Shown here: positions 1,017 to 62,916 of the stretch, piece by piece | Layout: each line of letters opens with the position of its first letter | Position numbering within the stretch: position 1 is the stretch's first letter | NCBI GenBank assembly: GCA_017405445.1 | Contig: JAFRAK010000011.1 | Location: 1 to 64,000, forward strand | Reading direction: 5' to 3' | DNA from: Bacilli bacterium | Lineage (GTDB): Bacteria; Bacillota_I; Bacilli_A; RF39; UBA660 | Length of the DNA stretch: 64,000 nt | Program-made: the position numbers and the translations under genes | The notes under the pieces: generated by a model | Told to the model about the DNA's origin: nothing | Databases searched by the model: none | Seen by the model: only the letters and a program-made list of their open reading frames with translations

Positions 1017-1040
1017 TAGCACGCCCGTAGAGAAGAATAT
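1017..1040 (+). repeat. dispersed GC-rich repeat, divergent copy
   Basis: Reads TAGCACGCCCGTAGAGAAGA, a variant of the core GCTCCCCCGTAGAAGAAAT with substitutions and an insertion. It is intergenic and is the most diverged copy I count. Confidence 0.5.
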
Positions 1041-1106
1041 AGCATTGATATTCTGCAAGTGTACTATTAATATTGTTTTCAACTTTAATCTTTAATACTT
1101 ACAACT

Positions 1107-1278
1107 ATGAAAGTAATAGTAACAAGTTGGATATACCACAAGAACAAGCAAACAATTCCGATAAAAGGTAAGTGAGTTCAATAAAGAGTTGTATGATGAA
1201 ATACTACAAGATAATGGTTGTCAATACGATTCTGAACTGCAAGGAGAAATAGCTAATTACTATTTATTTAGTGAATAA
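1107..1278 (+). pseudogene. small hypothetical gene broken by a one-base frameshift
   Basis: ATG at 1107 opens MKVIVTSWIYHKNKQTIPIK and soon reaches TGA at 1173. The next frame is open from 1165 to TAA at 1276-1278 (...SEFNKELYDEILQDNG... ending YYLFSE). Deleting one A from the A4 run at 1163-1166 restores one reading frame of about 56 residues. The N-terminus (MKxIV) resembles that of the broken gene at 784, so the two may be related. The function is unknown. Confidence 0.5.
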
Positions 1279-1279
1279 C

Positions 1280-1362
1280 ATTATAATCTCAGTTATGATT
1301 TTGATAATATGAATCAAAGCCATTAGGTAAAGTATTATCATTATTATAGCTGAGATTATAAT
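1280..1362. other. nested inverted repeat, candidate structured RNA or terminator
   Basis: A perfect 13-bp outer stem, ATTATAATCTCAG (1280-1292) with CTGAGATTATAAT (1350-1362), encloses a perfect 8-bp inner stem, TGATAATA (1302-1309) with TATTATCA (1333-1340). The internal loop is symmetric, 9 nt on each side. The apical loop has 23 nt. It lies between the broken gene ending at 1278 and the gene starting at 1381. There is no strong U tract, so it is not a textbook intrinsic terminator. Confidence 0.5.
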
Positions 1363-1380
1363 TGACTAAAATCTATTATT

Positions 1381-1497
1381 ATGGATACTAATAAAATATC
1401 TGATAAATGTTCTTATTGTGAAGCATATAAATATTGTGACGTGATAATTAGTTCAACAAAACTTTGTAATAAACTTAATAAAACTTCAAACTTATGA
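1381..1497 (+). CDS. small four-cysteine protein
   Basis: A 38-residue protein with Cys at positions 10, 13, 19 and 29. The CSYCEAYKYC arrangement (CxxC plus a further Cys) suggests a small metal-binding knuckle. It overlaps the next gene by 4 nt (ATGA), the usual sign of translational coupling. I do not recognise a family. Confidence 0.5.
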   Translation: MDTNKISDKCSYCEAYKYCDVIISSTKLCNKLNKTSNL

Positions 1498-1646
1498 TTT
1501 ACTTTTATCAATCAACAAGAAAGAGTGACAAACTTACTACTCCTGTAACTATTATGAGTTCTAATCCTCGTAGAGCTGATGCTTTTGCAGTTATTAAATT
1601 TCTTGAATGGGGCTATAAAGGAAGTCCTGTAAGAATTGAAGTATGA
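1494..1646 (+). CDS. small hypothetical protein, possible C-terminal extension past TGA
   Basis: A 50-residue soluble protein coupled to the gene before it by ATGA. After its TGA at 1644-1646 the same frame stays open to TAA at 1713-1715 and adds about 22 protein-like residues (EINITDKTLDYVNN...). The stop may therefore be a recent nonsense change, or the tail may be chance. The extension overlaps the next small gene (1702) in another frame. Function unknown. Confidence 0.5.
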   Translation: MIYFYQSTRKSDKLTTPVTIMSSNPRRADAFAVIKFLEWGYKGSPVRIEV

Positions 1647-3262: not shown

Positions 3263-3283
3263 AGTGTTAAAATTTTGTTAAAA

Positions 3284-3300
3284 TAGCTCCCCCGTAAAGT
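3284..3300 (+). repeat. dispersed GC-rich repeat, 3'-diverged copy
   Basis: TAGCTCCCCCGTAAAGT between the genes ending at 3262 and starting at 3358. The first 12 bases match the core exactly and the 3' end diverges. Confidence 0.7.
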
Positions 3301-3357
3301 AACTATAGATATTATTGTTATCTTTACAAAAGTTTATTAATAATAATATTTATTCTT

Positions 3358-3710: not shown

Positions 3711-3735
3711 CAAATAGATATTAAATATTAATATT

Positions 3736-3808: not shown

Positions 3809-3835
3809 CAACTCTTGGTTATAAATGTTAAGTTG

Positions 3836-3940: not shown

Positions 3941-3980
3941 GTTACAGTTAAAATAACTAACATTTAATTACTTGGTTTAT

Positions 3981-4052: not shown

Positions 4053-4085
4053 CTATTGCTGATGTATATTTATGTTCAGTTTCGT

Positions 4086-5062: not shown

Positions 5063-5065
5063 GAT

Positions 5066-5823: not shown

Positions 5824-5845
5824 CATTTCTTCTACGGGGGAGCTA
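5824..5845 (-). repeat. dispersed GC-rich repeat, full-length copy
   Basis: ATTTCTTCTACGGGGGAGCT, an exact reverse-complement core copy. It is intergenic, 12 nt after the Gln tRNA and upstream of the gene at 5904. Confidence 0.9.
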
Positions 5846-5903
5846 TACAGCTTATCCGTTTATTGTTAAACTTATTATTAATTTAAAATTTGTTGTAAAG
5901 TGT

Positions 5904-6196: not shown

Positions 6197-6631
6197 ATGA
6201 CAATTGTTCTTCCTAAGTTTAGACTTAAAATTGCTGAACATAAAAAACGACCTTCTAAAGGATATACTAAAATAGGTAAAATTGTTAGAGGTGTTGTTAT
6301 AGAAGAAAATGATGTTCTCAAAGTTAAAGTTGAATTTGAGAATGAAAGTAAATTTATGGAGGTACATACTTTTAATTTTACTCCTCGTTCATTTGAAATT
6401 GAAGGTAGAGTAAATGTATTTACCAAAGCTAAAGATAAGTTTGGTAAAAGAGTTAGACTTTGTAGAGACCTTTGGAAAGCTAAATTTCATCCTGGAAGTA
6501 CAGATAACTATTTACCTTTTAATGTTAATTGGATAGTTAAAGGTTATATAGTTACAGATGGACTTTTAAGGTGGTTTGATTTTAAAGACTTAGTAAGTAT
6601 TAATGGTTATGATATTAAAGATATTTCTTAA
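6197..6631 (+). CDS. hypothetical basic protein upstream of the helicase
   Basis: A 144-residue beta-rich, basic protein placed 2 nt after the previous gene and 3 nt before the helicase start, so it is probably in one operon with both. Strand-like segments (KIVRGVVIEENDVLKVKVEFENE) suggest a small beta-barrel, perhaps SH3- or OB-like. A role with the helicase is inferred from position only. Confidence 0.6.
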   Translation: MTIVLPKFRLKIAEHKKRPSKGYTKIGKIVRGVVIEENDVLKVKVEFENESKFMEVHTFNFTPRSFEIEGRVNVFTKAKDKFGKRVRLCRDLWKAKFHPGSTDNYLPFNVNWIVKGYIVTDGLLRWFDFKDLVSINGYDIKDIS

Positions 6632-6634: not shown

Positions 6635-7948
6635 ATGAATATTATTCCTATTTCTAGTGCATGTCAAAGTAATAGAGCTGACATATCAAATTTTACTAAT
6701 GACCAAAAAGAAGCATATAATGAACTTATAAGTTTCATTGATAAACCTTTTGATGCTAAAGACTATAAAAGAGCATTAGTTGGGGCTGCTGGTACTGGTA
6801 AAACTTATTTGGTTAGAGCTCTTATTATGAATAGTTCTATGAGTTATTCTATTATAGGACTTTCTGCACCAACTCATAAAGCATGTAGAGTATTAGGAGA
6901 AAGTATTCATATATCTGGTATTAAAGTTAATACTCTTCAATCTGATTTAGGATTAAGATTAAATTTTGATATTGAGAAATTTGACCCTAAGAATCCTCCT
7001 TTTGACCCAAAAGGTAAAATTAAGATTGGAAATTATAAACTTTATATTGTTGATGAAGCTTCTATGATAAATAGAGGTTTGTCTACTTTTCTTGAAAGAA
7101 CTTGTATATCTAATAAGTGTAAACTTTTATATATTGGTGATAGTTCTCAACTTGCTCCTGTAGGTGAAACTTATTCAACTGCATTTAAAGGAGTTAAGAC
7201 ATGTGCTCTAAAACAAATTGTTAGACAAGGTGAAGATAATCCTGTAAGTTATCTTCTTGAACTTCTTCGTTATGATATAGAACATAAATCTTATGAATTT
7301 ATTAAATATATTCAAAGAGTTAGAACTAAATTTAACGACGATTACACTAAAGGCTATCAAGTTTGTACTCCACAAGAGTTTAATCAAATTGTTTATAACA
7401 ATTTTAGTGATGAAGAAATTACACGTAACATAGATTATGCAAAAGTAATAGCATTTACTAATGCTGCTGTTTCTGGATGGAACAAATTTATTAGAAATGC
7501 TACTATAGCAGAATGTGATAGGTCTATACTTACAAAAAATGACCTTATAATTAGTTATGTAACTATAGTAAATCAGTTTAATGAGTGTATCATAAAAAAT
7601 TCAGAAGAATATATTATCAAAGACATTACAAATTATGTTGATGAAAAATATCAATTTAAAGGTTTTATGGTACGATTTCAAGCTATTCACGGAGGAGATA
7701 TAACTACATCGTTATTTGTTATAGACCATTCTGATAAATATACTATACAGAAATATATTGCTGTTAGTACTAATCTAATTGAATCAGCTAAAACTGCTCG
7801 TGCTGCTATTAAATCTCAAAAGTGGAAAGAATATTATACATTTAAAGAATCATATTTACTTCTTACTAATATCATAGACCCTATTACTCATAAGATACTA
7901 TACGATAGAGGACTTGATTATGGTTTTTCTCTTACTAGTCATAAGAGT
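6635..7948 (+). CDS. SF1 DNA helicase (Dda/RecD2-like), exon 1
   Basis: First 438 codons of an ATP-dependent DNA helicase acting in phage replication. Visible motifs: Q-motif TNDQKEAY (about 21-28), Walker A GAAGTGKT (50-57), Walker B DEAS (140-143) and motif III GDSSQL (168-173). The exon ends at AGT in HKS, and an in-frame TAG follows at 7949, which is the first base of a group I intron. Spliced to exon 2 (8999-9154) it gives HKS-QGST, the normal motif V region, and a 489-residue protein, close to other SF1B phage helicases. Confidence 0.88.
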
Positions 7949-8998
7949 TAGTAACTTGGCTCTTGTAAAATTCCTCTAATTGCTGGAAACTCGCGAAGAT
8001 AATAGTGCTACAACATAAGATGAAAATCTAAGTGTGAACGCTTGAAAAACTATTATTATGTGACAATCAGCAGCTAAGACTCTAAGAAATACTTGTGAAA
8101 GTATTACGAGTAAAGTTCATCGACTATCTCGGAAGAGAGTAGATTATATAAAGTGTTATATAATCGAAACGGGGAAATACTTTTCATAAAATTCATTTGG
8201 TATTTTGAAAAACTTTTCATAAATTTGTATAGGTTTTACTAAAAATAATGTAGTATGATTTATAATATTTATGGATTAGTTAGTCCTATTGATGGACAAA
8301 TAGTTTATGTTGGTGTTACTTCCCATAGTATAGAACACAGAGTTAAACAACATTATTGGCATTTAAATGAAGTAGATTATGGTAGACGAAATAACAATAA
8401 ACGTTTTGAATATCTCAAATCTATATTGCCATTAAAAGTTACTGGGGTTTTATTAAAACAAATAGATGACACAAAGTCTGCACTAAGTGTTAATTTTTGG
8501 GAAAAATATTATATTAATGAATATTTTAAACTTAATCCAAATCTTTTGAATGAAACTGATGGTGGAAGAGGTGGAAATACTCATAAATATAAAACAGATA
8601 CTGATATTAAAGCTATTGGTGAAAAAATATCAAAAGCCTTAAAAGGTAAACCTAAATCTAAAAACTTTGCAGATAATTTATCTGCAAGTAGAAAAGGATT
8701 AGGTAATCCAGCAACTAAAAAATTAAAACAACCTATTTATGCTATTAATTGTATTAGTAGAAAAAAACTTAGAAAGGTGTTTTACCATAGTTTTGAAATA
8801 AATGAATTTCTTAATAAAGTAAATGCTTGGTCTAATATTAAAAAAGCTATTAATCATTCTAATATGCGAGTTGGTAGTAATTTAGATTTTCAAGTTTGTT
8901 ATGGATATTATTGGTTGACTAAAGAATATGCTGATAATTATGAATTTATGTAAAGTATAAGATATAGTCAGACTGTATATGAAAGTATATAGATTATG
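7949..8998 (+). ncRNA. group I intron in the helicase gene, with homing endonuclease
   Basis: A 1050-nt intron. The 5' exon end AAGAGT pairs with the guide GCTCTT at 7960-7965 with the expected U-G at the splice site. The adjoining CTTG pairs with the 3' exon start CAAG (P10). The last intron base is G. Core signatures are AATCAGCAGC, GTTCATCGACTA and AGATATAGTCA, and a GAAA-capped P9 stem precedes the 3' splice site. Bases 7974-8126 are nearly identical to the second polymerase intron. Confidence 0.9.
8255..8953 (+). CDS. GIY-YIG homing endonuclease in the helicase intron
   Basis: A 232-residue intron-encoded endonuclease that would cut intron-less helicase alleles to spread the intron. The N-terminal domain opens with YGLVSPIDGQIVYVGVT, a GIY-YIG variant, and later has WEKYYINEY and LNETDGGRGG, as in the family. 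Around residues 125-145 ISKALKGKPKSKNFAD matches a NUMOD3-type DNA-binding repeat. A C-terminal segment (PIYAINCISRKKLR...) resembles NUMOD1-type modules. It is wholly inside the intron, after the P3-P8 part and just before the AGATATAGTC core element. Confidence 0.85.
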   Translation: MIYNIYGLVSPIDGQIVYVGVTSHSIEHRVKQHYWHLNEVDYGRRNNNKRFEYLKSILPLKVTGVLLKQIDDTKSALSVNFWEKYYINEYFKLNPNLLNETDGGRGGNTHKYKTDTDIKAIGEKISKALKGKPKSKNFADNLSASRKGLGNPATKKLKQPIYAINCISRKKLRKVFYHSFEINEFLNKVNAWSNIKKAINHSNMRVGSNLDFQVCYGYYWLTKEYADNYEFM

Positions 8999-13360: not shown

Positions 13361-14782
13361 ATGGTAGCTGATAAAATATTTGAACAAGCTGCACTTAATT
13401 GGAGAGATAATCATGGGGTTGGGACTGCTTTAGTTCCAACCCCTCTTAATGATAAAGTGTTAGTTTACAAAGTTCTTGCTAAAGTATATGCAAGAAGTCC
13501 TGATATGTCATGTGTTATAATTGTTCAATCTTTAGCCGATAGAACAAATATAATTGAGTTTCTAACTAATCAAGATTGTGAAGAAAACAATAATGAATTT
13601 AAGAATCTTATCTATAGAAAAACTATAAGAGTTCTTACTAAGGATTTCATTGTTACAGGAGGATGGCAAACTTATGCTATGCTTTGTATTCTTTATAATA
13701 TTGAGAATTATGATTTAGGAATAAATTTATATTTTTCTCAATGTCATTATAGATTAGCAATTATAAATAAACTTTATACTTCTGAAAATAATGAAGGTAA
13801 ATTGTATAATCATACTCCTATTTTGAGTTGTTTTAAACAATTAGAAGTTGACGAATTACGAGTTAACACCCCCGTAGAAGAAACATGGGTTGGAGTTACA
13901 ATCGACTTAACTAGTGAAGCTTGGAGACTTTATCAATATTATACTAAATATATTGAAACAAGCATTAATATATTTGGTAGTTTTGATATACTTAAGCAAG
14001 CTAGAATAGGAAATGAAACTCTTAACATATCTTCTGCAAGTATTTGTAATCAAATAGCTGAAGAAAATGGTTGGAATGACCATCTTGACATGTCTTTTGA
14101 TTTTAATAGAAGTATTGACGAGATGTATAATCCAAATAATCTTCGTGAAAGAGCAACAAATACTTATGAAATTATTCGTAATAGAAGCAATTTAATATCT
14201 GATTATGAATACAAGCTTGAAGTTATTTTGGAAGTTGTTAAAGACAATCCTGAGGATAAAATACTTATTATAAATAAACGTGGTGAATTTGCAAGTAAAG
14301 TTACAGATTATATAAATAGTCATTCTGATACTGATATTTGTGGAAACTATCATAATAAGGTAGATAATATTCCTGCTGTAGATATAAATGGAAATCCTAT
14401 ATTTATTAAGTCTGGAGTAGAAAAAGGCAAACGTAAATCTATGGGCTATTGTGCTCAAATGACTCTTAATGAGAAGAAATTCAATTTAGGTAAACTTAGA
14501 TGCCTTAGTCTATCTAATTCTCCTGATAAGTCTTTAAATGTTAGTTTTAATACAATTATTATTACTTCTCCTTTTTGTGAAGATATTAAATCTTATCTTT
14601 ATAGATTAACTCATATTTGTCCTATTAGTGATAAAATAAAATTATTTTCTATATTTTGTAAAAACACTATAGAGCAACAAAAGTTGATAAATAAACCAAT
14701 ATCGGAGACGCATGTAATTGTTAATAAAGATGAAATTATTGCTAATAATGAAAATAATTTTGACTTTCTTATTGTAGATTAA
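13361..14782 (+). CDS. SF2 (SNF2-like) helicase-related protein with degenerate motifs
   Basis: A 473-residue protein next to the polymerase, a position often held by an SF2/SNF2-type helicase in crAss-like phages. The opening FEQAALNWRDNHGVGTALVP resembles a motif Q/I region, but no GKT Walker A is visible. KILIINKRGEFASKVTDYIN and later SNSPDKSLNVSFNTIIITSP with YLYRLTHI are like helicase C-terminal motifs IV-VI, with R replacing the usual QRIGR arginine pair. It may be an ATPase-dead derivative. A GC-rich repeat copy is translated as NTPVEET near residue 170. Confidence 0.55.
   Translation: MVADKIFEQAALNWRDNHGVGTALVPTPLNDKVLVYKVLAKVYARSPDMSCVIIVQSLADRTNIIEFLTNQDCEENNNEFKNLIYRKTIRVLTKDFIVTGGWQTYAMLCILYNIENYDLGINLYFSQCHYRLAIINKLYTSENNEGKLYNHTPILSCFKQLEVDELRVNTPVEETWVGVTIDLTSEAWRLYQYYTKYIETSINIFGSFDILKQARIGNETLNISSASICNQIAEENGWNDHLDMSFDFNRSIDEMYNPNNLRERATNTYEIIRNRSNLISDYEYKLEVILEVVKDNPEDKILIINKRGEFASKVTDYINSHSDTDICGNYHNKVDNIPAVDINGNPIFIKSGVEKGKRKSMGYCAQMTLNEKKFNLGKLRCLSLSNSPDKSLNVSFNTIIITSPFCEDIKSYLYRLTHICPISDKIKLFSIFCKNTIEQQKLINKPISETHVIVNKDEIIANNENNFDFLIVD
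13415..13443. repeat. GC-rich hairpin inside the SF2-like gene
   Basis: GGGGTTGGGA (13415-13424) and TTCCAACCCC (13434-13443) pair over nine of ten positions around a 9-nt loop. It is strikingly GC-rich for this DNA and lies 18 codons into the gene. No U tract follows. Confidence 0.5.
13865..13884 (+). repeat. dispersed GC-rich repeat, copy inside a gene
   Basis: AACACCCCCGTAGAAGAAAC inside the SF2-like gene, translated as NTPVEET. The 5' AGCT is replaced by ACAC. Confidence 0.8.
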
Positions 14783-17786: not shown

Positions 17787-19013
17787 ATGAAAAGAAGTGT
17801 TGCTACTGCCAATCTTACAAAAGATTACATTGAATCAAAAATAAGTCAAGAATCTATAATGAGTAAGTATTTAAATATTCCTGTAGAAGTTATTATAGAT
17901 TGTATTGAGCATAATCATCTTATAACCTCTATATTTAGGGATGACGATATTAACAAAAGTATGGGTTTTGCTTATAATAGTAAAGGTAAACTTAAAGTTA
18001 GAGACTTTGGTGGCGTAGGTATGTTTATGGATATATACGATACAGTAGCATATGTACTTGGATTAGCTTTTGAAAGAAAGATTGAAACTAATAACAAACA
18101 AGATTTCTATTTTGTTCTAAAACATATAGCATATACATTTAGTGATGTTATTGACGGTAAAACTACAGACCCTAATTTACAACCTCTTATAGCAAATGCT
18201 ATAGCTAAAGGTAAAACTAGAAAAGCTATAATTGATATTGTAACAAGGTCTTGGAATAAATATGATAAAGATATATGGGGACATTGGGGTATTGATTTAA
18301 GTTATCTTAATACTCATTTCGTTGTTCCTGTTGACCAATATTATATAAACAGAACTGTAGATACAGACCCTAAATATTATTATAAAGCTAAAGACCCATG
18401 TTATGCTTATATGTTAGGAACTAATAGACAAGGTATTCGTCTTATTAAACTTTATTTTCCTCGTAGAAATCGTCGTACTGAATTAAAATTTATAACTAAT
18501 TGTAATGTTCTTGAAGGTTTACCTAATCTTGAACTTGATAATTATGATTATATTTTAATTACTAAAAGTAGTAAAGATAGACTTAGCATAGGCAATCACC
18601 TAATGCTACATCCTCTCTACGGGGGAGCTAATAAGCTAAACATTGGAATTATAAATCTTCCAAGTGAAAATTATAGACTACGACAAATAGAATATGATTG
18701 GCTTGTTAAAAAACTTGCTGATGATGGTATGATTCTTAGTCTTCTTGATTTTGATAGAACTGGTCGAGATGGTGCTAAATATCTTGAAGAAGAATACAAT
18801 ATTCCTTATCTTTTTATAACTCGTGGTGAATTTGGTCTACCTAATTTCCAATGTAAAGATTTTGCAGACCTTCACGATAAATTTAAAAAAGAACAAATTA
18901 ATAGATTTATTGAAGATACTAAAAAATATGTCGAAATTAGATTTAAAACCAAAAAAGATACCAATGCCTATGACGGATTTAAATTATCAAGTGATTTGCT
19001 CCCGTTCTATTAG
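17787..19013 (+). CDS. DnaG-type primase
   Basis: A 408-residue primase for lagging-strand RNA primers. The N-terminal catalytic region shows NSKGKLKVRDFGGVGMFMDI, the usual RNA-polymerase-basic-motif neighbourhood. The TOPRIM fold follows, with YDYILITKSSKD and then LSLLDFDRTGRDGAKYLEEE near residues 315-335 (DxD metal site), and ends with FADLHDKF. No N-terminal zinc ribbon cysteines are visible. It is shorter than bacterial DnaG (about 580) and lacks a fused helicase. A GC-rich repeat copy at 18613 is translated as LYGGAN. Confidence 0.85.
   Translation: MKRSVATANLTKDYIESKISQESIMSKYLNIPVEVIIDCIEHNHLITSIFRDDDINKSMGFAYNSKGKLKVRDFGGVGMFMDIYDTVAYVLGLAFERKIETNNKQDFYFVLKHIAYTFSDVIDGKTTDPNLQPLIANAIAKGKTRKAIIDIVTRSWNKYDKDIWGHWGIDLSYLNTHFVVPVDQYYINRTVDTDPKYYYKAKDPCYAYMLGTNRQGIRLIKLYFPRRNRRTELKFITNCNVLEGLPNLELDNYDYILITKSSKDRLSIGNHLMLHPLYGGANKLNIGIINLPSENYRLRQIEYDWLVKKLADDGMILSLLDFDRTGRDGAKYLEEEYNIPYLFITRGEFGLPNFQCKDFADLHDKFKKEQINRFIEDTKKYVEIRFKTKKDTNAYDGFKLSSDLLPFY
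18613..18630 (-). repeat. dispersed GC-rich repeat, copy inside primase
   Basis: CTCTCTACGGGGGAGCTA within the primase gene, read as LYGGAN. The TTCTTC part is changed to CTCTC. Confidence 0.85.
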
Positions 19014-19404: not shown

Positions 19405-19894
19405 TCAATATATTTGTTATCTTGATGATTCGGATAAGAAAATGATTGATGAACGTGTTGCTGAGAAAGGTATTGAGAATTATCTTTCTCAGCAACTTAT
19501 TTATCTTGATTGCTCTCGTATAATTAATGGTATGAGAATGATGCAAACTATTGGTTATCCTTATCAAAGAGAAATTACATCTTATCTTTATGCTTTACAA
19601 ACTAAAGCAGGAAATGATTTTGATTTTGACAAAGAATGGTTTGACAAACTTATTAAACAGCATCATGCCAATATTGAATATGAAAAGATTAATCCTCCTG
19701 TTTGGTATGGTGGTAAAAAAGCTAAAGATAAATGGTTAAAAGATAACAATAAACTCCCCCGTAGAAGAAAGGTTAAAGAACAATTTCTTTCTGGTATGGG
19801 TAAAGAAATATCTAATGTTGAAAGACTTAAACGTCTTAGTGCTGAATTTGGTAATTTAACATTTAAACTTAATCCTACAAAGAAATATGAGTAA
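19391..19894 (+). CDS. hypothetical helical protein
   Basis: A 167-residue basic helical protein overlapping the previous gene by 14 nt and the next by 8 nt, so it is cotranslated with both. A GC-rich repeat at 19753 is translated as KLPRRRK in a basic stretch. There are no recognised motifs. Its position between primase and ligase suggests a replication accessory, but that rests only on position. Confidence 0.6.
   Translation: MEELNQYICYLDDSDKKMIDERVAEKGIENYLSQQLIYLDCSRIINGMRMMQTIGYPYQREITSYLYALQTKAGNDFDFDKEWFDKLIKQHHANIEYEKINPPVWYGGKKAKDKWLKDNNKLPRRRKVKEQFLSGMGKEISNVERLKRLSAEFGNLTFKLNPTKKYE
19753..19770 (+). repeat. dispersed GC-rich repeat, copy inside a gene
   Basis: ACTCCCCCGTAGAAGAAA, read as LPRRRK. 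This is a different frame from the SSPVEE-type copies on the same relative strand. Confidence 0.85.
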
Positions 19895-23284: not shown

Positions 23285-24230
23285 AATTTGGGAACAAGGT
23301 AATACTCTAGAAGATATGTGGAAACATATTGCTAGATGTACTAGAGTTTGTTATCAAAGTACTCCTAAAGAAAATGGTGAAACTGATGAAGAATTTGTTA
23401 AAAGAGTAATTCTTAGACCAGATTCTTCTACAGGGGAGCTTAATTTTGATAAGATACATGGTGCTATGCTTGAACATGGTACTGTTTATCTTTATGAATA
23501 TACTGAATATCATTCAAGTAGACTTAGTAAATATAAATATAACAAATATTCTAGATGTGTTGAAAAATATTCTCACAAAGAAGTTTGTCAAAGTGATAAA
23601 GATTATATGTATAACTATTATATAACAACTAATCTTCGTGTTATTTATGAAAATGGTTGGCTTGATGACTTAAAGTATATTTGTACTCCAACTAAACATC
23701 ATGCTAAAAGAGTTACTGTATCTTTTACTACTAATATAGGAGTATCTCGTGAATTTAATCGTCATAGAGTTAATTCTATAGCAGAAGAAAGTACTAGATA
23801 TTGTAATTATTCTCTTGATAAGTTTAATCACAATATTATATGTGTCAAACCTTCTTGGATAACAGAAGAAGATATGAACGAAATAAATAATGAAGACTCT
23901 CTTATTAGATTAGATGCTCTAATTAAAGAATACGGTACTGAATTTGAACATGGTTGGTCTGATATAGATTATTATTTATTTGCTTTAGAAACTTGTAATT
24001 ATTGTTACAATAATCTTATACTTAAAGGTTGGAAACCTCAACAAGCTAGAGAAGTTCTTCCTCTTGCAACTAAAAGTCAACTAATTCATACTGCTTTTAT
24101 AGATGATTGGAAACATTTCTTCGCTCTTAGAGCTGATGGTGTTTCAGGTCCTCCTCATCCTAATGCTAAATTTATTGCTGAGCCTCTTAAAGAAGAATTT
24201 ATTAAACGTGGTTATATAGAAAAATTATGA
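23259..24230 (+). CDS. thyX: flavin-dependent thymidylate synthase ThyX
   Basis: A 323-residue ThyX that makes dTMP from dUMP using FAD and methylene-tetrahydrofolate. The signature RHRVNSIAEESTR (RHRx7S) starts near residue 168. C-terminal LPLATKSQLIHTAFIDDWKH and FFALRADG...PHPNAK are typical. It is longer than bacterial ThyX (about 220-250), with insertions in the N-terminal half (KYKYNKYSRCVEKYSHKEVC). A GC-rich repeat at 23423 is translated as DSSTGEL inside it. With dUTPase downstream it keeps uracil out of phage DNA. Confidence 0.93.
   Translation: MELILPKAEIWEQGNTLEDMWKHIARCTRVCYQSTPKENGETDEEFVKRVILRPDSSTGELNFDKIHGAMLEHGTVYLYEYTEYHSSRLSKYKYNKYSRCVEKYSHKEVCQSDKDYMYNYYITTNLRVIYENGWLDDLKYICTPTKHHAKRVTVSFTTNIGVSREFNRHRVNSIAEESTRYCNYSLDKFNHNIICVKPSWITEEDMNEINNEDSLIRLDALIKEYGTEFEHGWSDIDYYLFALETCNYCYNNLILKGWKPQQAREVLPLATKSQLIHTAFIDDWKHFFALRADGVSGPPHPNAKFIAEPLKEEFIKRGYIEKL
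23423..23442 (-). repeat. dispersed GC-rich repeat, copy inside thyX
   Basis: TTCTTCTACAGGGGAGCTTA, with one G to A change in the G run. It is translated as SSTGEL. Confidence 0.8.
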
Positions 24231-27029: not shown

Positions 27030-27033
27030 TCTA

Positions 27034-27087
27034 CATTCTTCTATGGGGGAGCTAGTTAGGCTAATTAGCTCCCCCGTAGAAGAAATG
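27034..27087. repeat. head-to-head pair of GC-rich repeats forming a hairpin
   Basis: Two copies in opposite orientation, 27034-27054 (ATTCTTCTATGGGGGAGCTA) and 27066-27087 (GCTCCCCCGTAGAAGAAATG), separated by 11 nt. Together they form an almost perfect stem of about 20 bp with one G-T pair and one bulge. It follows the DUF932 stop by 4 nt and could serve as a terminator in both directions, although the flank has no long U run. Confidence 0.8.
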
Positions 27088-43905: not shown

Positions 43906-46900
43906 TTATCGACAAGCGTATGAGATTGTGCCATCGGCCAAGCATTTACGCAAATCGAGCGTTTCTTGATGATTTAAACCTGCAAACACTTCATTTAAAG
44001 AAACCATATCCCGCAAAGAATCACTATTAACTTCTACATCATCTTCAGATATATCAGGTCTACTTGTTAAAGAATCAAATATAGCATAACCATTTTCATC
44101 AACACCAAATGATTCATCAAAGAAAGAATCTATATCATCAACGTCTAATAATTCATCTTCATCTTCAGATTCTTCTTCTTTGTCATTTTCAGTCTCTTTT
44201 TCAGTTTCAATATTAGCATTTAATGTTTCATTCTTACTTTCTTCTACGGGGGAGCTAGACTGTACTTCTTCTGTATTTGAAGTAATGTTTCCACTAACAA
44301 CATCTGCTAATATATTAAGTTCTTTTTTTAGCAGACTATTATCTTTAACTTTAAACTTATTTCCAAGATTAAATATAAACTTAGTTACAAAATTAAGAAT
44401 TTTATCAAATATAGATTCTTTTTTATTGTTAATATTTTTTAATTGAACTTCATTTGCAAAAAGCATAAATGAAGGACTAGTTAAAGTTTCAACAAGAAAT
44501 TCTTCTAATTTACGTTCATTATTAAGTTTATCATATATTTGTTTACTATAATGCTTTTTCCATTGCTCAATATATTCTCTTCCACGAAGAGCATTAGCAA
44601 CAGACATATCACCGTTATCAAATCTTTTACAATATTCATCAAACTTGTCAAAGAATGTAATATAAATATCTTGTATATTACTGAGTATAGTTTTAGCATC
44701 AAACTCTTTACTATTATTAATTATATAATGTAATCTTTCATGTATAAGCTTAACTATACCTTCTCTTTTTTCATTTATATTACCAGCAAGAAGATTTAAT
44801 AATCTATCTCCAACAACAACAGTTCCATGAGGTATAGTACCTCTAGAATAAGTTTGTTTTCCATTCTTAGTAGTTCTTTTTTGTCTGTATCTAAAATATC
44901 TTCCTGCATTTCTTGAATTTACTTGAGCAACAGGACCAACAAAATCAAAACCATCTTCTGTATTTACAACATCGTTATAATTTTCATCATAAACTATATT
45001 TGAAGGAAGAAGTTCATCAATCAGTTCTACAAGGTCAGGATTATCATCAAAGATATATTTTGGAGTAACAGCTTCAACTAAAGCTTTACCTTTATGTTTA
45101 ATAGTTGGATTTTGTGTAATATTAACATAATCAGCAAATTGACTAGAACTAGCATTTGGAAGAATATGAACTTCTTCAGCAGGTTTAGTTTGTTTAGCTT
45201 TAACATTTGCAGAAATACTAGCTTTTGGAACACTAGGTATATCTACTTTTATAATTTTATTGTTTATTTGATTTTTACCTTTTAGTCTAAAGTTATGTCC
45301 TTTTTCAACTTTAGTATTTACACGAAGCATATTATTAGACATCATAAAAGATTCATAAGAATCATATTCTCTTCTATAATCTCCAATTTCAATTACAAAT
45401 TTAGGCTTACCATTTACATTTTGTATTTTAAAATAAGCGTTAGCATCCGTTGTTTGACTAACTCCATTACTAATTCTTAAACCCTCATGAGAAAGACTTA
45501 TAGCTGTATTTTTAGCAATTAATTGTTTTAATTGTGCTTTAAGTAATGTAGCATCAGTAGTACCTGCTTTTAGTAATGTATTAGACACAGCTTTTACAGT
45601 ATCTCCTACTTGAACAGTTCCTAAAGCAGAAACGCTTGCAGTTTCAGTACCATATTGTCCTATTGTATTAAATATTACTGTAACAGTATTACCTTGATAA
45701 TTTGTAAATGTAAGAGTAGTTCTTGTAGGATTAGGATTATTAGAATTGTCTGTAGTAACTACTCTACACATGCCTCTATGGTCTTGAAGAACATTTATAT
45801 TATTCTTTTTAGTACCATCAAACAAATATGTCAAGAATCTATTAACTTCATTAATTCTTTCTGACATAGGTATAGATTTATCTACAAACTTATCACAAAC
45901 TCTATCTACTTCTTTATTTAAAGCTTCTATTATTTCATTAAGTACAGGATTGTTTAGTTCTGCATCATCTAATCTTACACCATAAGCTTTTACAGGAGTT
46001 CTTCTTGTAGTAGATTGGCTTATTTGAGTATTTAATATAAGAAGAGTAGAGCCAGAACTCATACCTTGTAAATCTATAGTTTCACCTCCACTAAGAATTA
46101 CTTTATCTGCTTGATATGGGTCTACGACACCTAACATAGCAGATTGACCGTTAGCAATAGCTGACGTTATAGGAGTAAGAGAAGAATAATTACCTTCAAT
46201 ATAATCAACTACTTGTACTAATTCTCCTTCTGAAGCTTTAGTTACAGTAACTGTTTCAACAGGACTTTGCTTTAATCTTATAGCTGCTTTGTAAGAATCA
46301 TATTGAGTATCAAAGTAAGAATCTATACTAGCTTTAATAAGAAGTTTATTTTTTTCATAATTTCCTTCATTTATACCAACAGTATATCTAAATACGTTTT
46401 TTAGATGTTCAAATATTTTATCATAATCAACAGTATCTTTACCATATTTAGTATACATATAAAGAGGACCGTGATAAAAACGTTTACCCTCTTTAGTTGT
46501 TTCTATATTAGCAACTGTTTGATTATATAACTCTACTATTATAGGATTTGTAACAAAAGCATCTGCTAAACCTATATCACTATAATCATAATACAATAAT
46601 CCTCTTAATGCAGCAGCATCTGCATCATCACTTAAAAATATTCTTTCAACTAAATCTTTTATACTACTAACAACTTTTCCATCCTTATCAGTATTTAAAT
46701 CCATTAAAAAGCCTTTTACAAGAGCAATCATAGCATTTCCTCTTACTTTATAGGGAGAAGGCATTCTTCCAACACAATAACCATCTTTATCAAAAAATGC
46801 TATTTCTCTATCAGAAGGAGAAACACGTAATACATCTCCTGCTTTTACAGCAGATACAGCTTTTGTATTTATTGGAGTGCTATAAGCTTTTTCTATTTCA

Positions 46901-49900
46901 AGTCTATATTCTGTAGAAGAATCATTTTCTGTTTTTGTATTAGTTAATTTACTATCTTTAGGATTTTCTAAATCTCCAATAACTTTATATTTTGTATTAT
47001 TAGGTGAAGTTAACCATCCTGTAATAACTTTAAATAAAGCATAAGGTTCAGTATTAAAATCTCTTTTTGCTATTTTATTACATAATGCAAATAAATCATT
47101 AACATAAATAGCTTGTTTTCCTTCTATAATAATAGTAGGAAGAGTATTTATGTATAATTCAATAAAATCACTAAATGTATTAGAAAATAAAGCAGAATAA
47201 AAACCGCTATTATAATCAGTAAATTTAGAGGCCATTGCCACTCCAACAGCAGCAGTCTCTAAAGCATCATCGTTGTTATTTTTCTTTTTATTTATTATGT
47301 CGCCAGATTCTATATAAAGGTTGGAATAATAATCAAATATCTTACCAAGAATATCAGGATTAAATACATTTGCATAAGTAGATACTATTCTTTGTTTTGC
47401 TTCAGCAATATCAAACTCTTTACCAAAATGGTCTATATATTGTTCAAAGCCATTTAATACAACATGAATAGCATCAGAATTAGTAGGGTCAGCTAATATA
47501 TCTTCTACTGTAGCTTCTGTTACAACGATTGTTTTTGCAGGAGTTGGCTCAGGTTCTGGTTCAGGTTCTGGCGTAACTTCTGACTCAGGAGTAACTTCTT
47601 GAACAGTCTCTTCTACGGGGGAGCTAACTTCTTTAAGTTTACCTTTTGAAACAATACTCCATTTATTTTTTTCTTTCTTTATAATAGGATTTGTTTCAAT
47701 GGTAAAATCTTTAGAAAGAATATCAAAGTCTGGAGCTTCAAAATATTCAGTAGAAAGAATTTTACCAATTTGGTCAAGAGGAATATTAGAATATATTAAT
47801 TCTATAGTTCCATCTTCGTTAATTCTACCTTCTATACCATTAGGGGAATTAGATACATGAACATTTCCTTTTTTATCTACTTTTACTTTAAAAAACTTTG
47901 TTTCTCTTTCATCATTAACAGGTTCTGTTTCAGTAGCTGTTTCTTCAACAGGTTGTTGTGTTTGTTGACTAACAGCAGCAGATGTAGCTTGGGTTATAAT
48001 TTGCTTTTCTTGATTCTTTCTATCTATTAATGCAGATATATATTTAAGAATTAAAGCATTTTCGTCATTAGAAAAATTGAAAATAGATATAGCATCTATA
48101 AGCTTATCTACATCTTCTTCTCTTATTGTATCTTTTGCAAGCTTTCTTGCATTATTAATACCATCTGTATATGCAGTTTTTATTACATCTATAACTTTAT
48201 CAAAATCGTCACCATATTTATTATATAGTTTATCGATTATTTCTGTAGCAGGAATAAGAGCTTGCTTTCTAGCTTCATTCATTTGATTATGAAGCTGACT
48301 AATTCTAGATTGAATTTCTTCTGTTGTTTGTTTAACATTAGAGCGTTCAACAGCAATATTCATATTTAATATTGATTCATCTGTAAAACGTTCTGCTAAT
48401 GTAGAACTTCTTCTTGCTAAAGCATCAGCTCCAAATTTATATTTATAATCTTCATAAACTTTTTGTGCTTCTGCCACTATGTCGTCTATAGTTTTATTAG
48501 AAGCAGAAAATCTAGTAAGTGTTTTACCGCTATTTCTTAAAAGTTTATCTATTTCTTGAAAATCAGCAAGTTTATCAAATTCTTTTATTAACTCGAAATC
48601 AGTTTTAGTTGCAAGATTATCATCAAACTTCATCGTATCTGGATTAATTCTATCAGCTAATCTTAATGCCATTAGAAGTTCTCCATGTCCGTATTTTCTT
48701 GTAAGTTCAGCTAAAACTATACGACGTCTACTATTAATATCCTCTATAACAATTTGCTTTTGGACAGAATTTAAAGATTTATCTTTTTTAACTCTTTCTA
48801 TTTGCGCAGTGAGTTGAGCATAATCAGTTGCTAAAGTATTCGAATCAATAGCTTGTCTATGAAGCTCTAAATTTTGTCTTGTAGCATCATCTAAATCTTC
48901 ACTATTTTCAAGACCTTGTAATACGTTAAGTCTATCTGTTAAATCTCTAACATTAAGAAGATGTTGAGTATTTTCTTTTGCTATAATTTGAATATATTCA
49001 GGTCTAACAGGATTAGAATTTTTTCTAGTATTTATATATGTTGCTTGGTTTCTAACATGTTCTAATTGTCCAGAATATATACGTTTAATATCTTCAAGTT
49101 TTGTAACAAGTTTATCACTAAAAACGTCAGCTTCTTCTTTTTTAGCAAAACCATTATCAATAAATACTTGCTTTACATTTGTGTCTCTTATATATTCTTT
49201 TAGTAAATCATAAGTTCCACTATTTATAGATTCAAGACCAACATCACTTATAAACTCATTTAAAACTCTCTCTTTAGCAAGAGCTTTTTGAGCTTCAATA
49301 TCCCCTTCAAATTCAGGAATTTCTTTTCCTGGTTCAGTAGCAAATATGTTTTTATTATTTTCTATTTGCTGAAGCTTTTTAATAGTGTTATCTAAAATGA
49401 CATTTCTATGTTTAATAGCTGCAACGGCAGCATGATTGTCTGCCATTTCCAAATAATCAATAAAGTCATCAGCTACAATACTTTCTCCTGTTTCTTTATT
49501 AAGGTCTCTTTTTGCTTTAGATTCTTTAGCCTTTTTGTACAACTGTCTAGCTTCAGCTATACTTCCAAATTCATGAAATATAACACCACCAATTGTACCC
49601 CAAAGAGTAGCATCATATAAATCTGGAGATTTAATATATTTTGTAAATCTATCACTAAAAGCTGTAGGAGTTTCAGTACCAAGTAATACTTTACCATAAG
49701 TAATACCTTCTTCTTGAGCAATGTAATTGACTGCTTCCTCTATACCTTCTGTACTTTCTACAAAAGCTGTTTTTACAAATTGTTTTCCTCCATATTTTAA
49801 GTACCTTAAATAAGTGGGGGTTTTATCAATTACTTCAGTTGCTATTTTAGTAGCTTCAGTAGCAGTTTTACCTGCAGTAGCAGTAGATATAGCTTGAGCT

Positions 49901-53936: not shown

Positions 53937-55784
53937 CTAACCTAATGCTGCGTCAATCCAAGCTAACCTTGATTTAAGTGTTTCTTTAAGTCTACCTGTA
54001 GCACCAACTAATTGTTGTTCTACATTTCTTTTTTCAGAAATGAGACCTTTCCTATTTCCACTTTGTATATAATAATTTATTCTAGACTCAGGGTCAGCAG
54101 TTAATAAAGTATTTCTTAAATTATACATTCTACTAGCAACACCACTAAGAGTATTACCAGCAAGATTACCAATTCCAGAAATAGTATTAGCCCAACTTTG
54201 AGCATTAGCCTGAGCAGTACTAGCATTAACTTGTGCAGATTGAGTTAAAGCTCCGCTTCTAGCACTTGCAATACCAGCAATCTTTTGATTTTCTATATTA
54301 TTATTATATTCAAGTAATTCACGTTTAGATTGATTATAATCTGCCATAGCCTGCATATCAAGAGCGGCGTTCTTTTCAGCAGCCTGATTAATAGCTGCAT
54401 TATTAGCCTGCTTAATCTTTTCAGATTCTTGTTCAGCAATATCATAAGCTTGTGCTAATTGACTAATTTTTGCATCTTCAATATTAGCCATTCTATTTAA
54501 AGCCGCTGCAGAACTAAGACTACGATTCTTAATTGCTTTTATATTTCTATTAGCACTTCTATTTATAATATTTGTTTTAGGAGCAGCACTTACTTGATAA
54601 TTTCTCAAAGCAGGAAGATAATGAGCGGCTGCATAATCATCTTTATTAAGAGTATCCATACTAATGCCTGACATTCTACTATAAGCATCTGCCATTATAT
54701 CACCTGCTTGGTCATAAGCATTAGTCAAAATACCAGCAGCTTTTCTGTTGCCCCGTGTAGTAAGATAACTTCCTAATACACTTCCAAGAGCACCAACACC
54801 AGCTCCAGCTACATCATACCAACCACCAACATCAGAAAATCCACCAACTAATTTCTTTCTACGGGGAGTTGCACAGCCTCCATTTTTAAGTTTTCTAACT
54901 CCACTTCCAATTCCCACAACAGCATCATCTGTCATAATATTATCTTCTCCTTGTCTAAGAAGATTATCTTGGAATATAGTAGAATTACCTCCAAGGAATC
55001 TAAGTTTTCTTTTTCCCATATTGTGTTTAATTGCTTCTTGCATTTCAAAAGCAGTTAAAGGATTAACACCTTGTTTAACAGCTTCAGAAGGATTAAAACC
55101 GTTTATATTATGTTTAGATATAAATAATAAGTCTCCAGGAACTGCAAGCGCGTATTCTCCACCTTCAGCTTCTATATCTGCATCACCTCCGTATTGTTTA
55201 TGTCCTCTACTATTAGAATTAGGTTTAGTTATATCTACACCTACTCCAGTAGCTTTTTTACCATTTGGCAATGTATGAGTTTGATTATGAGTATCACCAA
55301 CAAATTGATAAAGTTCAAATCCTTCAGGAGTAAATCCTTTAAATCTAACTCCACCACCATCAGTAACTCTAAAATCAACATTATCACTCCCCCGTAGAGA
55401 GAATTTGTTGCCTGCATAACCTCCATATTTAACAGCTTGAAGTGCATCTCTTTTTCTATCTTCAAAATTTTGAGAACCTGTAAGCATTTGAAGATTCATT
55501 TGAATTTCTCTTTGTTTGTCCTGCTGTTGCTTATGTAATTCAGAAGTAAGTTGCATAGACCTAGTTTGCATAGCATTATTATTTGCAGTTTGCTGTCTAA
55601 TAGCGTCAGCTTGGTCTTTTGAAGCTTTTTCAATAGCAGCAGCCTGTGCTCTTGCAGAATCTTCTGCTACATTTTTAGACATTAAGCCTGATATTACATT
55701 TCCTAAAAGACCAATTCCAGCACCAGCAAGAATAGCAGCTCCTAATCCTGCTTTAGGGCGTTGTTTAATAGATTGCTTTCTCAT
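53937..55784 (-). CDS. late virion protein with Ala/Gln-rich coiled coil, putative ejection protein
   Basis: A 615-residue protein. Residues 12-35 (GLGAAILAGAGIGLLGNVIS) and about 318-342 (VGGWYDVAGAGVGALGSVLG) are Gly/Ala-rich hydrophobic segments like those in phage internal and ejection proteins that enter the membrane. Residues 38-110 and 440-520 are Ala/Gln/Asn-rich coiled coils. The N-terminus is basic (MRKQSIKQRPKAG). It overlaps the 1560-aa tail gene by 20 nt. Two GC-rich repeat copies lie in it. The role in DNA ejection is inferred from composition and position. Confidence 0.6.
   Translation of the reverse strand: MRKQSIKQRPKAGLGAAILAGAGIGLLGNVISGLMSKNVAEDSARAQAAAIEKASKDQADAIRQQTANNNAMQTRSMQLTSELHKQQQDKQREIQMNLQMLTGSQNFEDRKRDALQAVKYGGYAGNKFSLRGSDNVDFRVTDGGGVRFKGFTPEGFELYQFVGDTHNQTHTLPNGKKATGVGVDITKPNSNSRGHKQYGGDADIEAEGGEYALAVPGDLLFISKHNINGFNPSEAVKQGVNPLTAFEMQEAIKHNMGKRKLRFLGGNSTIFQDNLLRQGEDNIMTDDAVVGIGSGVRKLKNGGCATPRRKKLVGGFSDVGGWYDVAGAGVGALGSVLGSYLTTRGNRKAAGILTNAYDQAGDIMADAYSRMSGISMDTLNKDDYAAAHYLPALRNYQVSAAPKTNIINRSANRNIKAIKNRSLSSAAALNRMANIEDAKISQLAQAYDIAEQESEKIKQANNAAINQAAEKNAALDMQAMADYNQSKRELLEYNNNIENQKIAGIASARSGALTQSAQVNASTAQANAQSWANTISGIGNLAGNTLSGVASRMYNLRNTLLTADPESRINYYIQSGNRKGLISEKRNVEQQLVGATGRLKETLKSRLAWIDAALG
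54853..54869 (-). repeat. dispersed GC-rich repeat, shortened copy
   Basis: TTTCTTTCTACGGGGAGTTG, with one G fewer and a T for C. The minus gene reads ATPRRKK. Confidence 0.7.
55385..55405 (+). repeat. dispersed GC-rich repeat, copy inside the 615-aa gene
   Basis: CACTCCCCCGTAGAGAGAAT. The minus gene reads FSLRGSD, the only copy found in this frame. Confidence 0.85.
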
Positions 55785-60447: not shown

Positions 60448-60450
60448 AAC

Positions 60451-61197
60451 TTAACCTCTAGGTAAAAATGTCCAATTATAAAAGAAATTATTCCAACCAT
60501 CTTTAGCATTACCTATTTTAGATTTAACAGATGCTGCTGCTTTTGGTCTAAGAGTATTCCATTGAATATATGGATTAGTTACAGGATTGTTTGATTTCAA
60601 ATCATAAACAGCATGATGACTTCCTCTACTAAGATATTTAAAAAGAATATACCATGAAAGAGCTTCTAAAAGAAGACCATCATCATAAATATAAGGACAT
60701 TCACAATCATAATAATCATCATGATATGTAGCAACTTCATAACTTTCTACTTCAATTTTATCTGTATCAAAATTAAGTTCTATACAATTACCATTAAGAA
60801 CAAAATTTCTACCAGAAGGATTAACTATATTTGCTACTTGAACAGTTTCCCATCCATTTTTAGCAGAAGAGTCAGTTATACCAATTAGCTCCCCCGTAGA
60901 AGAAAGTGTAGATTGTCTACATCCACATTCTTTTTCTCTATTATAAACAGGTATTTCATTACCATTAGAATCAAACACTTTAAGTTCTGTAGCATTAAGT
61001 TCACAAGGAAATTGTGCAATCTTATCTGAAACTTCAAGTTCTCTACGTTTACGTTCCATAGGAAGAACTTTCATTTGAGATAAAGCATCTATAACCCATG
61101 CAGCAACTCTAGGAATCCAATCACTTTCACTAATATTAAAGTCATTGTCAACTTTTCCTATTAGCCTTTGGAGTTTTAACTGATTGTTGACCTTCAT
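60451..61197 (-). CDS. crAss-like connector/ring-type structural protein
   Basis: A 248-residue protein. WIPRVAAWVIDALSQMKVLP near residue 28 and the later YDDGLLLEALSWYILFKYLS are like the helical parts of head-tail adaptor or ring proteins. CGCRQ and DCECPYIYDD add four Cys in the middle that could bind a metal. A GC-rich repeat copy is translated as SSTGELIG. It overlaps the 317-aa gene by 50 nt. Structural role inferred from its place between connector-type and tail genes. Confidence 0.6.
   Translation of the reverse strand: MKVNNQLKLQRLIGKVDNDFNISESDWIPRVAAWVIDALSQMKVLPMERKRRELEVSDKIAQFPCELNATELKVFDSNGNEIPVYNREKECGCRQSTLSSTGELIGITDSSAKNGWETVQVANIVNPSGRNFVLNGNCIELNFDTDKIEVESYEVATYHDDYYDCECPYIYDDGLLLEALSWYILFKYLSRGSHHAVYDLKSNNPVTNPYIQWNTLRPKAAASVKSKIGNAKDGWNNFFYNWTFLPRG
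60886..60906 (+). repeat. dispersed GC-rich repeat, copy inside the connector-type gene
   Basis: AGCTCCCCCGTAGAAGAAAG, near-exact. The minus gene reads LSSTGELIG. Confidence 0.9.
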
Positions 61198-62101
61198 TTC
61201 TTATAAAATTTAAATATAATATATTATTAGCTTTAAGACACATAAAAAGTTTACGTCTTGGATTTATTTTAAGATTACATATTTTATTTAAATCTCCTCC
61301 ACATTCTTCTATTAAATCTTCATTTGTTTTACCTCCAAGAATAAGTCTATGACTATCTGTAACTTTAAATTGCATTTTAACTTCACCTTTTATTCTACAA
61401 TTTATAAGAGCAAATTCATAAACATATTCATCTTCTCTATACTTTCTATAATCTACTCCGTTATATTCTATTCCAACTCTAGCAGCATATTCAAATTCAT
61501 CTTGATTCCAAAGACGTTTACCTTCTTTAAGAAGTTTAGCTTTATTTTCTCTAGTAGCTTTAAAATCTAAAACTTTTCTTCCACCTTGAACAACTTTACA
61601 TCTATTAATACAAAGCCAACCTAACGGTTGTTCAAACATATAACCTTTACCTTCAACAATAAGTTGTCTACTAACTTCATTATAGAATTTTTCAAGAATA
61701 GCTTGATATTCAGTAACACTTAAATCTAATATTCTTTCCCATATATAAAGTTGATGCTTTTTATCTTTAAGTTCTTTTTGCAATCTAGCAAGTTTATAAA
61801 GTCTATATAAAGCATTAGTAGCAGTATAATTATGCTTTTTATTTATAAATAATCCTTTAGCATCATTATAAAATTTACCTATAGAATATTCATTATTATT
61901 AAATTCTTTATACTCTATAAGATTTATCTTATATGTTGTTTTATAATTATCTATATACGATTTAATTTCTGAATATAAAGCTTTTTCTTCTATAAGAAGT
62001 TTTTCATAGTCTTCAACTAATGCTTCATATTTTGGTCTAATAGCAGTATTTAGTGCTTTATAATAGACACGAAAGTTAGTTGGTATTTCTTTAATAGACA
62101 T
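61148..62101 (-). CDS. crAss-like structural protein, connector region
   Basis: A 317-residue protein. The N-terminal 130 residues are a long helical, charged segment (YEALVEDYEKLLIEEKALYS) and the C-terminal half is a mixed beta domain with basic patches (KINPRRKLFMCLKAN). A conserved-looking motif FKVTDSHRLILGGKTNEDL lies near residues 245-265. It is flanked by the 227-aa and 248-aa proteins, a trio that occurs as connector or ring proteins in crAss-like phages. No enzymatic motif. Confidence 0.6.
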   Translation of the reverse strand: MSIKEIPTNFRVYYKALNTAIRPKYEALVEDYEKLLIEEKALYSEIKSYIDNYKTTYKINLIEYKEFNNNEYSIGKFYNDAKGLFINKKHNYTATNALYRLYKLARLQKELKDKKHQLYIWERILDLSVTEYQAILEKFYNEVSRQLIVEGKGYMFEQPLGWLCINRCKVVQGGRKVLDFKATRENKAKLLKEGKRLWNQDEFEYAARVGIEYNGVDYRKYREDEYVYEFALINCRIKGEVKMQFKVTDSHRLILGGKTNEDLIEECGGDLNKICNLKINPRRKLFMCLKANNILYLNFIRNEGQQSVKTPKANRKS

Positions 62102-62104
62102 ATA

Positions 62105-62788
62105 TTAATATTTTATAGTGTTAGGAATTTCATCTGTTTCACGAGGATTATGAAGTAAATCTCTCTTGTATATAATTTCTTTAATTTGACCAATCATATC
62201 TTCACTAAGAATATATTCATTTTCATCAAGCCAAACTTTATCAATATCAGTTGTACCATTAGAAATAGCTATTTCATTTGGATGTTCAAATGCAGATTCT
62301 ATAATTATAGAATTAATATCAATAGATTTATTTTCAGGAGGAAATAAATAAATATATTCATTAATATAATCATAACACGGCATACCACAAAGTCCAGGAA
62401 CTGCAGTTCTAAACCTTGCGGAAGTTTCCTTAATAAAAGGAAATTCTCTGCTAGTAGCAAAACCAGCAGAGCTAACTCTATCAAAAGGAAGATTATTTGT
62501 TAATCTTACAGGTCTAGGAACTTTTTGAGTAGTTCTTTTAATTTTAGTAATATCCACATCTTCATAATCTTCAGGAAGTTGAATATCACCATCATTAACT
62601 GTAGTAAGAGTAACCTTAAAACGTTGAGTTAAAATCTTATCAACGTATCCATGATTTTCATAACTCCTACGAATAACTTCGTTACGTGTTTGAATAATAA
62701 GAAGTTTAATATTCTCACGTAGAGCATGATTATTTGGTTGTTTAACAGAGTGAGCAAGTTCACTAACTAGTTGTGCAATAGAAGCCAT
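62105..62788 (-). CDS. crAss-like ring/tail connector-type protein
   Basis: A 227-residue protein. An N-terminal helix (SIAQLVSELAHSVKQPN) precedes beta-rich segments; QRFKVTLTTVNDGDIQLPED and then AVPGLCGMPCYDYINEYIYL and FPPENKSIDINSII are typical of connector domains of tailed phages (T7 gp11 / P22 gp4-like). It is the first gene of the late operon after the promoter at 63155. The identification is by gene order and general features. Confidence 0.6.
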   Translation of the reverse strand: MASIAQLVSELAHSVKQPNNHALRENIKLLIIQTRNEVIRRSYENHGYVDKILTQRFKVTLTTVNDGDIQLPEDYEDVDITKIKRTTQKVPRPVRLTNNLPFDRVSSAGFATSREFPFIKETSARFRTAVPGLCGMPCYDYINEYIYLFPPENKSIDINSIIIESAFEHPNEIAISNGTTDIDKVWLDENEYILSEDMIGQIKEIIYKRDLLHNPRETDEIPNTIKY

Positions 62789-62812
62789 AATTTATTTATT
62801 GTTATTTACAAT

Positions 62813-62916
62813 AACTCCCCCGTAAAGAAGAATGTACTATATTACAACTAACTTTTCCTAACCACTAACCTAATTACTAACAAGTACACAACATACATTT
62901 CTTCTACGGGGGAGTT
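62813..62916. repeat. tail-to-tail pair of GC-rich repeats in the late leader
   Basis: AACTCCCCCGTAAAGAAGAA (62813-62832) faces ACATTTCTTCTACGGGGGAG (62895-62914), separated by about 60 nt. The two arms can pair into a stem of about 20 bp with a small bulge. The pair ends 25 nt upstream of the first late gene's ATG (62788) in the transcribed leader. Confidence 0.75.

Follow-up and report, generated by a model that had tools for sequence, protein, structure and literature searches.

An asymmetric, dispersed site with even spacing along each strand in crAss-like phages of the Intestiviridae

Introduction

crAss-like phages number among the human gut's most abundant viruses. In a recent review, their mode of replication is called unknown (PMC10136315). 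Here we describe a GC-rich, asymmetric DNA site dispersed through a 64,000-nucleotide stretch (the window) at the start of a 93,767-bp crAss-like phage contig, JAFRAK010000011.1, which is part of a bacterial assembly. By its genes and best matches, the contig lies near Intestiviridae, subfamily Obtuvirinae, within the Crassvirales. A sequence-only reading of the window had listed 23 copies of a 20-bp repeat on both strands; we followed this repeat through the contig and through related genomes.

Results

An ungapped weight matrix recovers 22 of the 23 listed copies, within a few bases of the places first given and with scores of 21-40, against highest scores of 13.7 and 14.6 in 30 Markov-simulated genomes. 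The remaining one, near 54853, lacks a C and is a weaker version of the site (AACTCCCCGTAGAAAG). A strict core, allowing up to 3 mismatches, matches 16 times where 0.01 matches are expected. Across the whole contig the matrix finds 33 sites; early and late genome regions both contain them. The repeat is real but somewhat longer than first thought: conserved information spans ~23 bp and is asymmetric, TTAG CTCCCCCGTAGA AGAAATG, with the consensus version CTCCCCCGTAGAAG on this contig. On the 3' side of the core, at about +16 to +47 of the same strand, lies a G-poor, pyrimidine-rich tract of ~30 bases. This flank accompanies intergenic, sense and antisense sites alike, and is therefore not a coding effect.

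We then counted words, unsupervised, in 22 Crassvirales genomes (20 Intestiviridae and 2 Steigviridae). In nearly all of the 20 Intestiviridae, most weakly in G008, a variant of the site comes first among GC-rich over-represented words; it does so in neither of the 2 Steigviridae. Matrices built for each genome find 20-36 copies in every one of the 20 Intestiviridae, each with its own drifted version, such as GACTCCCCGTAGAGGA in p-crAssphage, TTCCCCCATAAAGG in crAss002 and CTGGCCCGTAAAGG in ctbg_1; six more p-crAssphage strains from South Africa, Mexico and Russia carry 24-28 exact CCCCGTRGAGGA matches each. These matrices were trained on the genomes that they scan, with strand order and spacing unused in training. 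The genomes are related, several are metagenomic assemblies and their counts are not independent, so we rely on effect sizes that persist when distinct lineages are considered.

Two cultured carriers, jaberico on B. cellulosilyticus and crAss002 on B. xylanisolvens, are phages of Bacteroides hosts with different versions of the site. Thus, as judged from these comparisons, the version drifts with phage lineage and not with host, and the site set would most simply be read by a phage-encoded factor. Of the assembly's other 56 contigs, none contains the exact 15-base core, and where bacterial contigs elsewhere match it exactly, the hits are mostly singletons in unrelated taxa. We therefore rejected a host element, and the earlier suggestion of a decoy for host factors fares no better, given the differing versions in the Bacteroides phages.

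The spacing, described as irregular in the sequence-only reading, is even when each strand is taken alone. That reading had missed this evenness and the family-wide extent of the site, but its observation that both strands are used holds, with balanced totals of 271 plus and 291 minus sites. Over 40 genome-strand sets, the mean per-strand spacing is 6.6 kb, with coefficients of variation down to 0.25-0.35; most genomes carry 10-19 copies per strand. Same-strand gaps shorter than 0.3 of the mean make up 4% of the total versus 26% expected, and gaps longer than twice the mean 4% versus 13.5%. Among neighbours less than 1 kb apart, 128 are on opposite strands and 4 on the same strand, whereas strand permutation yields 64.6 same-strand neighbours on average and never fewer than 47; when only 11 distinct lineages are counted, the figures are 71 opposite and 3 same. 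Opposite-strand sites approach each other to 24 bp, with pairs 24-120 bp apart favoured and inverted pairs 24-60 bp apart common. Control words in Steigviridae genomes are mostly clustered on one strand.

Even spacing along each strand implies that site function is directional. A reader that recognizes one orientation and has a reach of several kb would give per-strand evenness; compaction or simple binding would not. Together, these patterns in the genomes indicate a polar DNA process, independent of transcription and with a phage-encoded recogniser.

Most sites lie inside genes, taken here as open reading frames and not from a gene finder. These in-gene sites are read in five of the six frames, as SSPVEE, LPRRR, STGE, YGGA or LRGS, and only the sixth, which holds an in-frame TAG/TAA stop, is never used; the repeat stands, and we rejected a protein-motif artefact. 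In the SNF2-type helicase gene, a site occupies the same alignment column in all 20 genomes, each in its own version (for example, CACCCCCGTAGAAGAA, TCCCCCATAAAGGAG and TGGCCCGTAGAGG). The antisense site in the primase gene is likewise kept at one place and has been remade in other frames in cr107, crAss002, cr11 and jaberico. From own-version sites at shared columns and from the frame changes in primase, we conclude that selection is on DNA rather than on peptide. More broadly, 200 of the 288 core-gene sites share their place (within 2 residues in aligned core genes) and strand with another genome, compared with 29 (sd 6) expected. The earlier proposal of a binding site for a phage protein, acting in replication, packaging or chromosome organisation, is borne out in kind by lineage drift and by orthologous positions held in own versions.

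Intergenic sites are enriched (141 versus 33 expected), probably because such places tolerate the sequence. Sense and antisense sites number 183 and 238, which fits a 2:3 ratio (p=0.15); this ratio is expected because one of the three sense frames is closed by the stop. By this count, site orientation is INDEPENDENCE from transcription, that is, it shows no dependence on it.

Beyond the Intestiviridae, CTCCAGAAG words are over-represented in crAss001 (MH675552, Steigviridae), where they hold the first and third places among 913 8-mers ranked by evenness along each strand, with a tendency to alternate. The site class is possibly present in the Steigviridae in another sequence form. In cr106, cr85 and frurule, however, related words do not show the per-strand evenness of crAss001, and so the CTCCAGAAG analogue remains a lead. 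In cr127 (MT774393, Crevaviridae), an unrelated dispersed motif, TGGCCACAAGGGCGAGAGG, occurs in 10 copies on both strands, too few for spacing statistics, and is likewise no more than a lead. The ten copies of TGGCCACAAGGGCGAGAGGTGTTCCG in this genome lie on both strands and include three close neighbours in opposite orientation.

The coordinates of the sites and of three genes discussed below are collected in Table 1. Elsewhere in the window, four phage tRNA genes (Arg, Lys, Glu and Gln) lie at 3638-5812, and Rfam returned only tRNAs at gathering level. Just below that score are two probable group I introns (Intron_gpI, 10805-11229 and 11513-12499) in the DNA polymerase B gene, the second of which holds a NUMOD1-type endonuclease open reading frame (11763-12470). 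A 159-nt direct repeat, 94% identical, occurs at 7968-8126 and 11510-11668; its second copy is in group I intron sequence and its first lies upstream of an open reading frame at 8255-8953, which hints at a third, related insert.

Table 1. Dispersed sites and candidate partner genes, in window coordinates ("matrix" marks sites found with the weight matrix)
Feature	Position	Strand	Remarks
Site, intergenic	1016..1038	+	matrix score 23.4
Site, intergenic	3283..3305	+	matrix score 21.4
Site, intergenic, directly past tRNA-Gln	5824..5846	-	matrix score 38.4
Small Intestiviridae-only protein adjoining helicase	6197..6631	+	candidate recogniser; low-confidence predicted OB fold
Dda/RecD-like helicase	6635..7951	+	candidate partner; PHROG_325 3.7e-59; exonuclease V PHROG_4412 2.5e-14
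Site in SNF2-type helicase gene, sense	13863..13885	+	matrix; same place in 20/20 Intestiviridae
DNA primase	17787..19013	+	candidate recogniser if sites initiate strands; PHROG_12622 5.7e-66
Site in DNA primase gene, antisense	18609..18631	-	matrix; same place in 18/20 Intestiviridae
Site in ORF 19391-19894, sense	19750..19772	+	matrix
Site in thyX-like gene, antisense	23420..23442	-	matrix
Site in ORF 24227-24469, antisense	24265..24287	-	matrix
Inverted pair, left half, between DUF932 gene and ORF preceding dUTPase	27033..27055	-	matrix
Inverted pair, right half	27065..27087	+	matrix; pair forms long hairpin, -21.3 kcal/mol, z -9.5
Site in ORF 28757-29089, sense	28956..28978	+	matrix score 40.5
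Site in giant gene 29683-43842, sense	31612..31634	-	matrix
Site in giant gene 29683-43842, antisense	35100..35122	+	matrix
Site in giant gene 29683-43842, sense	37048..37070	-	matrix; place common to 11 genomes
Site in giant gene 29683-43842, antisense	40688..40710	+	matrix; place common to 17 genomes
Site in giant gene 29683-43842, antisense	43257..43279	+	matrix
Site in gene 43906-50976, sense	44236..44258	-	matrix
Site in gene 43906-50976, sense	47605..47627	-	matrix
Weaker site, one C fewer	54855..54870	-	separate inspection
Site in gene 53937-55784, antisense	55383..55405	+	matrix
Site in tail ring protein gene, antisense	60885..60907	+	matrix
Intergenic site, left of inverted pair	62811..62833	+	matrix
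Intergenic site, right of inverted pair	62896..62918	-	matrix

Discussion

In general terms, we give about an even chance to the presence in Crassvirales genomes of a strand-alternating grid of virus-specific, evenly spaced polar sites that co-evolves with a virus-encoded reader and licenses a directional process on self DNA, be it end processing, recombination or strand initiation. More specifically, our tentative preference is that the site acts in the manner of Chi, controlling the DNA-end-processing and recombination-replication machinery that the phage itself encodes. Like Chi, the site is asymmetric and dispersed on each strand, with a pattern of orientation evident in the spacing and orientation statistics.

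A phage helicase-nuclease would travel along the DNA from an end, read the site in one orientation only and then change its activity. This change would limit resection and supply the RecT annealase of the phage with a 3' strand, to be used in circularisation, repair and recombination-dependent replication. The candidate machine comprises a Dda/RecD-like helicase, a RecB/Cas4-like exonuclease and perhaps the small OB-fold protein adjoining the helicase. Circular permutation is predicted for the genomes of crAss002 (PMC10136315), so DNA ends may lie at any point of the genome, and in both directions each strand would then have to offer a site no more than a few kb away; surplus close same-strand copies could be lost by drift, leaving the observed pattern. 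The helicase, exonuclease and RecT families are each present in 20/20 Intestiviridae, as is a Gam-like end protector.

Several points weigh against Chi-like control. Co-occurrence of these genes carries little weight, since the 20 genomes have a single family core in common. Bacterial Chi sites measure 5-8 bp, and the core here is far longer. The analysis gave only candidate binding proteins, and two AlphaFold models revealed no clear recogniser: one, the model taken through a fold search, has an OB-like fold (pLDDT 63; best Z 7.5, in the common range), and the other is a helical protein. Among seven p-crAssphage strains, four-gamete incompatibility is ~0.24 within 1 kb of sites versus 0.22 beyond, no clear excess in a weak, low-power test. 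Four Steigviridae genomes yielded neither the helicase nor the exonuclease family, though crAss001 has a possible analogue of the site; conversely, FpV4 has both families, yet no such motif stood out in it.

The main rival to Chi-like control is strand initiation, which we consider doubtful: a phage primase or loader would read the site on an exposed strand and start complementary synthesis there, so that each strand would carry sites at intervals of a few kb. According to a review, primase is the one replication gene that all crAss-like phages have in common (PMC10136315), and we found it in every outgroup but FpV4. Strand-specific even spacing on both strands fits such a role, as does the G-poor, pyrimidine-rich 3' flank. 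Six Intestiviridae records gave no DnaB_C match, which makes a sequence-directed loading route plausible, although this absence is not firm because the search also missed frurule helicases annotated as DnaB. On the other hand, lagging-strand priming would call for sites closer together than the mean of 6.6 kb, two single sites that we folded formed no stable hairpin, and DnaG-type primases usually recognize ~3 nt.

The sites might instead serve packaging, condensation or partition, with a virion or terminase-related protein binding them as genome-wide marks of self DNA. This role would explain why both early and late regions are covered, and a small helical family adjoins TerL in cr127 and lies near it in others. 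Compaction or marking, however, would need neither separate spacing on each strand nor a preference for opposite-strand pairs 24-120 bp apart, and we regard this role as unlikely. Integration host factor (IHF) was rejected as the binder: in Pfam, the frurule virion protein annotated as subunit IHF_54 matches tail ring protein 2, and IHF_53 gave no DNA-binding match.

Strand-specific nick sites, comparable to the localized single-strand interruptions known from T5, phiKMV and tf, would account for a clade-shared dispersed motif inside and outside genes, as in tf and Rembedalsseter (PMC3517423, PMC11780129). This function is improbable because known nick motifs occur on one strand only, against 271 plus and 291 minus sites here, and because cutting both members of the common inverted pairs 24-60 bp apart would break the genome.

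Control of transcription by promoters, terminators or L5-type stoperators would suit the intergenic enrichment and the strong hairpins of inverted pairs, some of which may have been co-opted as terminators. Most sites are nevertheless intragenic, the balance of sense and antisense is what the frame constraint predicts, and sense sites sit within very long genes, which makes such control highly improbable as the general function. The hairpin pair near the DUF932-dUTPase junction recurs in about half of the genomes and is a possible terminator, regulator or origin; cluster c1, which we first guessed to encode RepL, is in fact dUTPase.

Finally, a mobile mini-element or self-spreading repeat, suggested in the earlier reading, would fit the many near-identical copies at non-orthologous places and the occurrence of sites in indel-prone loops more often than random positions, but it is scarcely credible as the origin, since relatives without a site show broad gap lengths with no fixed-size insert or mode at site length (~70% are ungapped at the middle of the site), 200 of 288 positions are common to genomes, and a mobile repeat would not yield strand-wise evenness.

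In the literature searched, of which coverage was partial, we found no description of this site, and none of the papers listed for the core words dealt with crAss-like phages. A lineage-tuned, strand-wise even site set in 20/20 Intestiviridae points to a central DNA process that these searches did not turn up either. The site sequence offers a DNA bait for finding its protein, and the cultured phages jaberico and crAss002 make the question testable; strand-wise spacing could also serve as a general statistic for polar sites in other viruses. If the reading as a strand-alternating grid is true, these sites, which p-crAssphage carries too, would constitute a new class of genome-wide element in viruses.

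Among known systems, Chi sites of RecBCD and AddAB are likewise short, asymmetric and dispersed, act in one orientation and are needed at intervals along each strand. They are read by a host enzyme, whereas the ~23-bp site described here drifts with lineage, uses both strands equally and has only candidate readers. The ssi or primosome assembly sites (such as ssiA and ssiB of RSF1010) resemble it as strand-specific sequences at which a primase or loader starts synthesis, but usually number one or two per plasmid and contain a hairpin, in contrast to 10-19 sites per strand in most genomes here, with no stable hairpin in the single sites folded. Stoperators of mycobacteriophage L5 are also asymmetric and dispersed, number a few tens per phage genome and have a phage protein as their reader; those are mostly intergenic and oriented with transcription, whereas these are mostly intragenic and independent of it. 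The uptake sequences of Haemophilus and Neisseria (USS/DUS) share other features, being dispersed, non-palindromic, over-represented words that occur equally on both strands, with an intergenic excess, some inverted pairs and reported even spacing (PMC1939737). They differ in being read by the cell's uptake machinery with an orientation-independent effect, and strand-wise spacing is not described in that study; a DNA uptake sequence would moreover be over-represented in the genome of a competent host, whereas the exact core lies on the phage contig alone in its assembly. The nick sites of T5, phiKMV, tf and Rembedalsseter are similarly clade-conserved dispersed motifs inside and outside genes (PMC3517423, PMC11780129), but theirs lie on a single strand, whereas the sites of the Intestiviridae alternate between strands and form close inverted pairs.

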